A stretch of DNA of 51,115 nucleotides, taken from assembly GCA_028287975.1 (NCBI GenBank), contig JAQBOP010000186.1, positions 1 to 51,115 of the forward strand. Reading direction: 5' to 3'. This stretch comes from Mucilaginibacter sp. Its GTDB lineage: Bacteria; Bacteroidota; Bacteroidia; Sphingobacteriales; Sphingobacteriaceae. Below, in pieces: positions 11,233 to 12,121 of this stretch. Below the pieces are notes generated by a model. The model did not search any database, had not been told where the DNA came from, and saw only the letters and a program-made list of their open reading frames with translations. The stretch's first letter is position 1, and the number at the start of each line of letters is the position of its first letter. A program made the position numbers and the translations under genes.

Positions 11233-11330
11233 GCCAACCTTGGAGAAATCGCACAGGGCCCCAGGCCGCTAATAAAGTTTGTCTAACCTATTCTTAAAAC
11301 TGAACATTACTTTTAATAAATTAATTTCGC

Positions 11331-11338
11331 TATTTTTG
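11331..11338 (+). promoter_or_regulatory. Possible -7 element next to the antitoxin-like start
   Basis: TATTTTTG fits TAnnTTTG and lies only 4 bases before the ATG at 11343. If used, transcription would begin at or within the start codon, giving a leaderless message. It may equally be chance in AT-rich DNA. Confidence 0.25.
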
Positions 11339-11342
11339 ATAT

Positions 11343-11546
11343 ATGGTGATTGAGAAAACAAATAACGAGATCATATTTCGCTTACCTGCTGATATTGATA
11401 CTACCGGATTTGAACGGATAGTAAATTATCTTAAGTACAAGGAAGCTATCAGAAAAAGTGCAGGCACCGATGCGCAAGCCAATAAACTGGCAGACGAGTC
11501 GAAAAAACGCTGGTGGGCAGAAAATAAAGCCAGGTTTATTAAGTGA
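11343..11546 (+). CDS. Small antitoxin-like protein without toxin partner
   Basis: This 67-aa protein begins MVIEKTNNEIIFRLPADID, continues with a helical FERIVNYLKYKEAIRK and ends KKRWWAENKARFIK. This layout, a short beta strand followed by a helix and a tryptophan-rich tail, is what small Bacteroidota antitoxins that pair with PIN or RelE toxins look like; the beta strand would dimerise and bind DNA, and the tail would cap the toxin. That assignment rests on memory of the family style and not on a search. No toxin gene follows: the next 145 bases are non-coding and lead into the inverted repeat of the GIY-YIG unit. It may be an orphan or relic antitoxin, or an unrelated small protein. Confidence 0.55.
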   Translation: MVIEKTNNEIIFRLPADIDTTGFERIVNYLKYKEAIRKSAGTDAQANKLADESKKRWWAENKARFIK

Positions 11547-11599
11547 AATTGCGGACTGTGGTCGCCTCGCCACTTCCTGATCCCTACTTCTCTCCACCA

Positions 11600-11628
11600 C
11601 GTCATTGCGAGGAACGAAGCAATCTCTA
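11600..11628 (+). repeat. 29-bp inverted repeat, left end of GIY-YIG unit
   Basis: The repeat contains the core GTCATTGCGAGGAACGAAGC, itself partly palindromic (TTGC...GCAA), and matches the right end perfectly in inverted orientation. Repeats of this style are scattered in intergenic DNA of many bacteria. Confidence 0.9.
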
Positions 11629-11691
11629 CGGCGGACATTCACTCAACGTGATCTCGTCCTAAGATTATCGCACAAATCACTATTTTAGGGG

Positions 11692-11994
11692 ATGGTATTT
11701 CAGCAAGGCGGATGCGTCTACATCATGACCAACAAGCTAAACTCAGTTTTATACGTTGGCGTAAGTTCTGACTTGACAGGTCGTGTATGGGATCATAAAA
11801 ATAAAACATATCCTAAAAGTTTTACCGCTAGGTATAACTGCAATAAGCTGGTTTATTATTTTTTTTACCCACGTATTGAAGAAGCTATTAATGCCGAACA
11901 ACTATTAAAGGGAAGCAACCGAAAGCACAAACAGCAATTGGTTACTGCTTTAAATCCGGAATGGAAAGATTTATATGATTCGTTATTGGACTGA
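11692..11994 (+). CDS. GIY-YIG nuclease family protein
   Basis: This 100-aa protein consists of a single GIY-YIG domain of the short stand-alone (UvrC N-terminal/YhbQ-like) type. The VYI motif is at 9-11 and YVG at 21-23; the catalytic arginine is R31 (TGRVWDHK) with H35, and the metal-binding glutamate is E69 (AINAEQLLKGSNR). All expected catalytic residues are present, so it could nick or cut DNA. The C-terminus ends in the family's typical NPEWKDLYDSL. The chosen ATG gives the full first strand; an alternative start at IMTNK would remove it. The gene sits between perfect 29-bp inverted repeats and converges on the GH5-like gene. Its biological role is not established for this family. Confidence 0.88.
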   Translation: MVFQQGGCVYIMTNKLNSVLYVGVSSDLTGRVWDHKNKTYPKSFTARYNCNKLVYYFFYPRIEEAINAEQLLKGSNRKHKQQLVTALNPEWKDLYDSLLD

Positions 11995-12020
11995 GATTTT
12001 TCTTATTTGATTAGCTTACT

Positions 12021-12049
12021 TAGAGATTGCTTCGTTCCTCGCAATGACG
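12021..12049 (-). repeat. 29-bp inverted repeat, right end of GIY-YIG unit
   Basis: This is the exact reverse complement of 11600-11628. It begins 27 bases after the GIY-YIG stop codon. Confidence 0.9.
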
Positions 12050-12060
12050 CGCGGGAATAA

Positions 12061-12121
12061 GGTATTTCATGCACAACCCTCAATCCGCTAATAACAAAAA
12101 GAGGGCTGCGCATGAAATGCC
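12061..12121. repeat. Long imperfect hairpin between convergent genes
   Basis: Arms 12061-12081 and 12101-12121 pair at 18 of 21 positions around a 19-base loop. The hairpin lies between the convergent GIY-YIG and GH5-like genes, 11 bases after the GH5-like stop on the minus strand, and could act as a terminator for either, although a strong U-tract is missing. Confidence 0.6.

Follow-up and report, generated by a model that had tools for sequence, protein, structure and literature searches.

A GIY-YIG nuclease gene between inverted CGTC-class REPs, a candidate counterpart of REP/RAYT units

The unit and its nuclease

In a 51,115-nt stretch of Mucilaginibacter sp. DNA (contig JAQBOP010000186.1; hereafter the window), a small gene for a GIY-YIG nuclease lies between two inverted repeats, which raises the question of whether gene and repeats form a unit comparable to those of REP/RAYT systems. 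An initial annotation, made from the letters alone, had proposed a REP/RAYT-like unit with a GIY-YIG enzyme, and this proposal is supported by the association of gene and repeats, by the co-variation of nuclease clade and repeat, by the unit boundaries and by the comparison of occupied and unoccupied sites.

The unit extends from tag to tag (CGTC ... GACG) over positions 11600-12049 of the plus strand, limits that rest on its homology to three cassettes of the related genome G075. The left REP, CGTC-tagged and of type T1 (CGTCATTGCGAGGAACGAAGCAATCTCTA), occupies 11600-11628 on the plus strand, and the right REP lies at 12021-12049 on the minus strand with its tag outward. Arm alignment confirmed that the two 29-bp arms are identical and inverted, and the ungapped arm pair reaches 36 nt at 92% identity (11593-11628 and 12021-12056). 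The 392 nt between the arms hold, as originally described, one intact ORF on the plus strand (11692-11994; 100 aa, GIY-YIG domain), preceded by a left inner end (11629-11691, plus strand; ..GGACATTCA.. type) and followed by a right inner end (11995-12020, plus strand; ..GATTAGC.. type), both of which gene-free REP pairs in the same genome resemble.

The repeat had been called partly palindromic, which is true, but the palindrome is weak: the lone 29-mer forms a 5-bp stem that is no more stable than in shuffles (z = -0.52), its stem arms are separated by 10 nt, and it has no CCA tail. Two of its inverted pairs, by contrast, form very stable folds (z = -8.0 and -12.9). Its description as a scattered type also held up, with 23 matches to a 24-nt pattern across the 4.64-Mb genome when up to 3 mismatches are allowed, and 0 matches to the reversed control. 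Within the window, a 23-nt REP core (up to 3 mismatches) has 2 matches, the two arms, where chance predicts 0.00. Inverted pairs account for 14 of the 23 genomic copies, namely six gene-free pairs, whose starts are 70-114 bp apart, and the pair of the window unit.

Further repeats surround the unit. A second inverted repeat (12061-12121; 21 nt at 86%), possibly a terminator, follows directly, ahead of the point where the next gene ends, and the intergenic segment 10800-11206, another dispersed repeat, has complete or partial copies at 75-85% identity in contigs C391, C143 and C366 of the same genome and is partly present in G063. An upstream 67-aa ORF (11343-11546) was considered as a partner gene and not counted in the unit, because it lacks a Pfam match and its DNA (11313-11550) recurs at 81-85% identity in two relatives (L269 and L270), where the 5-kb stretches contained nothing that matched the GIY-YIG gene at the DNA level.

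The nuclease matches Pfam PF01541 (GIY-YIG; E = 7.6e-15), the only Pfam domain found, and its nearest folds are those of GIY-YIG proteins, in agreement with the earlier assignment to this class rather than to the Y1 transposases. All catalytic residues had been reported as kept; Tyr10, Tyr21, Gly23, Arg31, His35 and Glu69, which we take to be this set, are indeed invariant in a 25-protein alignment including the window protein; Arg31 is nearly invariant (90% or more) in a 47-protein alignment. Profile match and conserved residues together place the protein in the PF01541 superfamily, and its 100 residues contain no extra DNA-binding domain. Matches to homing endonucleases in NCBIfam and PHROGs are weak, the NCBIfam one (23.5 bits) lying far below its cut-off (56.05). 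Relatives of the protein find their best named matches in Mucilaginibacter. For the AlphaFold2 model (pLDDT 94.2), the nearest solved fold is the UPF0213 protein BH0048 (Foldseek E = 1e-3), and the sequence profile matches the UPF0213 structure 1zg2 (E = 3.5e-16); the protein presumably belongs to COG2827. Weaker Foldseek matches (E = 0.05-0.4) include Slx1 (E = 0.05), a structure-selective nuclease that cuts branched DNA, and the N-terminal nuclease domain of UvrC.

These folds bear on two readings other than that of a REP-spreading enzyme. The presence of UvrC among the nearest folds would suit a family of back-up DNA-repair endonucleases of the UvrC/Cho kind, found near REPs through the commonness of REPs between genes, which we regard as improbable in view of the flank comparisons below. 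Slx1, together with the very stable hairpins formed by REP pairs, would suit an enzyme that polices REPs, trimming or resolving their cruciforms without moving the repeats, the cassette itself spreading by REP-REP recombination; we judge this unlikely.

Association of the gene with inverted REPs

For each gene, the upstream flank was aligned with the downstream flank in reverse complement, a score of at least 30 counting as inverted, and the window clade was defined as ORFs with at least 70 bits against its own profile. For the relatives of the window, all but one of the small PF01541 matches listed were taken, and six ORFs lying close to contig ends were left out. Inverted flanks were found for 67 of 90 clade genes in these relatives (among the matches listed), compared to 6 of 1629 random windows and 3 of 218 ordinary genes from the same loci, counts that are not all independent since some clade genes share one site across several species. 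GIY-YIG ORFs of the other clade in the relatives had inverted flanks in 6 of 47 cases (among the matches listed), and these seem to be ordinary terminator-like hairpins.

The association extends to other phyla, where a scan of named genomes gave 80 loci, of which 78 were kept after two had been dropped, including loci from Cyanobacteria, Chloroflexi, Patescibacteria, Firmicutes and Proteobacteria: 40 of the 78 had inverted flanks, against 6 of 898 controls. In a held-out test on new paralogues in 23 genomes of other phyla, a set that excludes matches below 50 bits, edge cases, genes already seen and one listed match, inverted flanks were present in 19 of 36 genes and in 4 of 504 controls, with a dependence on match strength (18 of 27 at 95 bits or more; 1 of 9 below). 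Clade genes below the inverted-flank threshold numbered 23 of 90 in the relatives (among the matches listed), 38 of 78 in other phyla and 17 of 36 in the held-out set.

A strict motif, consisting of the tag, A[TC]NNN, a loop and the exact complement, occurred facing outward in both flanks of 38 of 90 genes in the relatives (among the matches listed; controls, 0 of 816), 39 of 78 in other phyla (0 of 678) and 6 of 36 in the held-out set, where it faced inward in 3 (0 of 504). Inward-facing copies in both flanks were seen for 14 of 90 genes in the relatives (among the matches listed) and 10 of 78 in other phyla. The motif was found in neither the other GIY-YIG clade in the relatives (0 of 47, among the matches listed) nor ordinary genes (0 of 218). 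Among the 107 genes with inverted flanks in relatives and other phyla, 86 carry [CT]GTC in the arms and 21 do not.

Enrichment of the gene beside the repeat, as the initial annotation predicted, is thus clear in the relatives, in other phyla, in the held-out set and against ordinary genes. Chance or composition as its cause is ruled out by the random windows, the real-gene controls and the sister GIY-YIG clade, and ordinary terminator-like hairpins do not account for the tagged inverted flanks. A repair role has been suggested before: a 2007 paper proposes it for three such Caulobacter genes, one of them with an SOS box (PMC1839093). This reading leaves the paired inverted REPs unexplained, as well as the lack of the strict motif in the other GIY-YIG clade and in ordinary genes; nor does it explain the clade-bound REP types, the several paralogues with different REPs and the tag-to-tag copies described below.

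The flanking repeats share the tag and the stem foot of a class that Di Nocera and others defined in 2013. According to that survey (PMC3733652), CGTC REPs carry a CGTC (or TGTC, CCTC) tag with AT at the stem foot, lie mostly in head-to-head pairs, apparently have no dedicated transposase, and occur in several bacterial phyla, including as the dRS3 of Neisseria and the Rickettsia palindromic elements; named carriers are S. meliloti, A. lipoferum, N. aromaticivorans and Neisseria (dRS3 = CGTC-1). In one record each from these four, we found the GIY-YIG gene between inverted CGTC REPs. Together with other plasmid-collection cases they make up 16 loci, chosen among the matches listed from 34 and 33 matching records. 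The gene is enclosed by inverted REPs in 13 of the 16, one of the 13 having the tag inward; the remaining three, two Rhizobium plasmids with the same protein and one Photobacterium locus, have no flanking inverted REPs.

Two observations concern gene neighbourhoods. Genes of the other GIY-YIG clade occur as tandem triplicates with a period of 350 or 369 bp (L122, 3950-4960; L126, 3968-4931; L127, 3983-4946), and two of these three arrays end near contig ends and may be longer. On a Planktothrix plasmid (L373), a REP-flanked GIY-YIG gene is bordered by an MmeI-type restriction gene on one side and by drmA, a DISARM gene, on the other.

REP types, copies and sites of the unit

Behind the tag, the palindromes fall into several types, which were assigned by regular expressions: T1 (ATTGCGAG..), T2 (ATTTCGA..), T3 (ATnCTGAG..CGAAGnAT), T4 (ATGCCGAACTTGTTTCGGCAT) and T5 (..CTGAG..TCGAAG..). 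On a tree of 84 labelled proteins, from which genes without a T1-T5 label and the tie L165 were left out and in which 'T3?' counted as T3, there are 8 changes of REP type, compared to a mean of 41.0 after shuffling, with 0 of 200 shuffles as low; one gene mislabelled as T3 in this tree (L064) counts against the coupling of clade and type. The 58 proteins from the relatives alone (among the matches listed) require 5 changes, where the minimum possible for five types is 4. A neighbouring gene is common to only 20 pairs among the 92 relatives' loci listed (flanks of 1.5 or 4 kb), and the coupling therefore does not reflect one inherited site. Furthermore, paralogues with different REPs coexist in one genome, as in G026 with its T1, T4 and T5 genes. 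The stems co-vary as well: among 127 distinct arms, picked by similarity between flanks and the YGTC tag and not by pairing, 64% hold a complement to the first five bases of their own stem, whereas the figure for the stems of other arms is 4.6%.

The boundaries of the unit emerge from its copies. In G075, three cassettes are homologous to that of the window over the tag-to-tag interval only, beginning at CGTC and ending at GACG to within 2 nt, except that one copy has six additional common bases before CGTC. With the most diverged copy, direct blastn homology to the window begins inside the unit, and the end-to-end alignment of this copy was obtained with its sisters. In all eight arms of these four cassettes, 28 REP bases are identical. 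One of the G075 copies (L259) is frame-shifted, and the three pairs of intact cassette genes show synonymous divergences of 0.7-1.9 with dN of 0.04-0.09, which suggests purifying selection on the protein.

Judged from their ends, the gene-free REP pairs look like internally shortened cassettes. In the window's own genome, the 50 nt inside such pairs score higher against the cassette than the 50 nt outside (20.6 and 15.6, n = 13, p = 0.025), with several single ends scoring no better than outside sequence, and by eye five of the six pairs consist of one left-type and one right-type end.

As the initial annotation had recommended, empty and filled sites were compared, and comparable sites with and without the unit were found. 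In Azospirillum lipoferum, the gene with its REPs lies between sufB and sufC, whereas A. ramasamyi, A. oryzae and strain B510, with flanks 95-97% identical, have a suf spacer of 87-129 nt without a REP of that kind. Sphingobium plasmids differ in their fnrL site: the cassette query is fully covered in 7 of 11 records of Tom strains; of the four others, two have a single palindrome tagged at both ends within the same outer flanks (one with changed bases), one has a different palindrome and one has none. In Sinorhizobium, S. meliloti carries the unit at the gltA-lpxB site, where strain K101 shows a comparable palindrome, tagged at both ends and with its left tag slightly altered. Gene-free records thus contain a doubly tagged palindrome at two of the three plasmid sites and none at the third (Azospirillum suf); elsewhere in all DNA gathered, perfect doubly tagged palindromes were seen at one site, against 137 singly tagged hairpins. 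Such a solo palindrome could be a deletion scar instead of a target. The occupied S. meliloti site (L361, 1081-2040) itself holds a partial GIY-YIG copy, REPs and a complete copy, that is, a tandem of units.

Among the window's relatives, two further sites differ in occupancy: G031 has no gene but retains a REP and carries REPs of another type, and G020 has neither gene nor REP. For the window unit itself, the two bordering genes are 37 bp apart in G019, with no block between them, and 3.8 kb apart in G063; an exact target within the species of the window was not obtained from these two genomes. These data bear directly on the policing enzyme considered above. Some cassettes do stay at one site across species, as that reading expects, but most loci have no neighbour in common, three copies occur in one genome and sites without the unit exist.

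The T1 24-nt pattern is present in 42 of 60 relatives, with up to 391 copies per genome, and in 36 of the 37 genomes of the genus. Across these 37 genomes, with kinship ignored, T4 repeats have a median of 43 in the 12 genomes with a T4-clade gene and of 9 in the 25 without (p = 0.0026), and T1 repeats a median of 54 in the 24 genomes with the matching gene and of 19 in the 13 without (p = 0.0135), four genes (L064, L165, L144 and L108) having been set to T1 by hand. Of the eight off-diagonal pairs of repeat type and gene, seven are not significant, the eighth being T4 repeats with a T3-clade gene (p = 0.022, kinship ignored). The refuting condition of similar repeat numbers in genomes lacking the gene is thus answered only in part: numbers of the matching type are higher with the gene, but a strict rule of repeats only with the gene fails. 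G017 lacks a clade gene yet carries 315 T1 repeats, which shows that repeats can persist in the absence of the gene; G003 is devoid of both. In addition, a REP pair of approximately 105 bp occurs at about 37 places in each of G031 and G017, at 82-96% identity, among 37 candidates scored per genome; the true numbers are probably higher.

The many repeats of G017 are what one would expect if another enzyme moved CGTC-class REPs and the GIY-YIG gene were a passenger trapped between two of them, and the 2013 survey does suggest that a broad range of transposases might be the movers, although it describes the associations of these REPs with transposase genes as few and fortuitous (PMC3733652). A passenger would not be expected to show coupling between clade and REP type, nor to recur between REPs in many phyla and among held-out paralogues, and we consider this reading very improbable compared with an enzyme that acts on its own REPs.

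Relation to known systems and a proposed mode of spread

Like the REPtrons and REPINs of REP/RAYT systems, the units described here have inverted pairs of palindromes with a tetranucleotide tag at the hairpin foot and, between inverted REPs of a dispersed family, a single small enzyme gene. They differ in the enzyme (GIY-YIG instead of an HUH Y1 transposase of the IS200/IS605 kind), in the tag (YGTC, that is CGTC or TGTC, instead of GTAG) and in that a single genome may hold several clades whose REPs differ. In REP/RAYT systems, TnpA-REP cuts single-stranded REP, aided by the GTAG tag, as stated in one study (PMC8266576). A constant tag and a variable stem are common to both systems, while the enzymes are unrelated.

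With the CGTC REPs, including dRS3 of Neisseria and RPE-6/RPE-4 of Rickettsia, the repeats share the tag, the AT at the stem foot and the head-to-head pairs, the latter being the inverted pairs of the window's own genome. A stem of 8-9 bp, a loop of 4-5 nt and a CCA-like tail were read in Alpha- and Betaproteobacterial loci such as L338, L344, L361 and L363; the window REP departs from this form, and the nuclease gene between the REPs is a further difference. The small UPF0213 proteins are alike in sequence profile and fold; their solved structures are labelled as hypothetical proteins, and we know of no link between them and REPs. Free-standing GIY-YIG homing endonuclease genes share the catalytic domain and a possible spread by break repair, and the two ends of the unit look as if joined in some of the gene-free alleles; unlike such genes, the unit has dispersed REP flanks, lacks an extra DNA-binding domain and is not located in an intron. 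Among the matches listed for the open part of PubMed Central, no literature link between GIY-YIG genes and REPs was found.

At the level of sequence, these comparisons establish a discrete tag-to-tag unit that is multicopy in one genome and present or absent at comparable sites, and whose nuclease clade tracks the REP type. We consider it likely that this unit is a mobile cassette, which we term a GIY-YIG REPtron: two outward-tagged REPs of the CGTC superfamily around a single-domain GIY-YIG nuclease, self-contained and spreading by REP cutting. The nuclease would recognise REPs of its own family through the YGTC tag and the hairpin or cruciform. Because Slx1, to which its fold is weakly similar, cuts branched DNA, the enzyme most likely cleaves such a tagged structure when it belongs to its own REP type, and a break mended from another copy would then bring the cassette into the new place. 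Gene-free pairs with similar ends (REPINs) may be copied by repair in the same way. Such a unit would operate much as REP/RAYT systems or homing endonuclease genes do, although its chemistry is unrelated.

As an association, the case for a new and chemically unrelated counterpart of REP/RAYT is strong, and the clade gene is a strong candidate for an enzyme that spreads or maintains CGTC-class repeats. A broader proposal, which we find plausible and favour with some reserve, is that the bacterial CGTC REP superfamily as a whole has its dedicated enzymes in the small GIY-YIG nucleases. They would form a second REP world of an origin independent of RAYT, in which structure-selective enzymes, coupled by clade to their own stem, spread cassettes and gene-free pairs via cutting and repair. 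For CGTC REPs, which according to the 2013 survey apparently lack a dedicated transposase, the GIY-YIG gene provides a named and testable candidate. If the proposal is true, bacteria would have a second, chemically unrelated way to keep families of short palindromes, and a role would be suggested for many genes that are annotated only as 'GIY-YIG nuclease family protein'.
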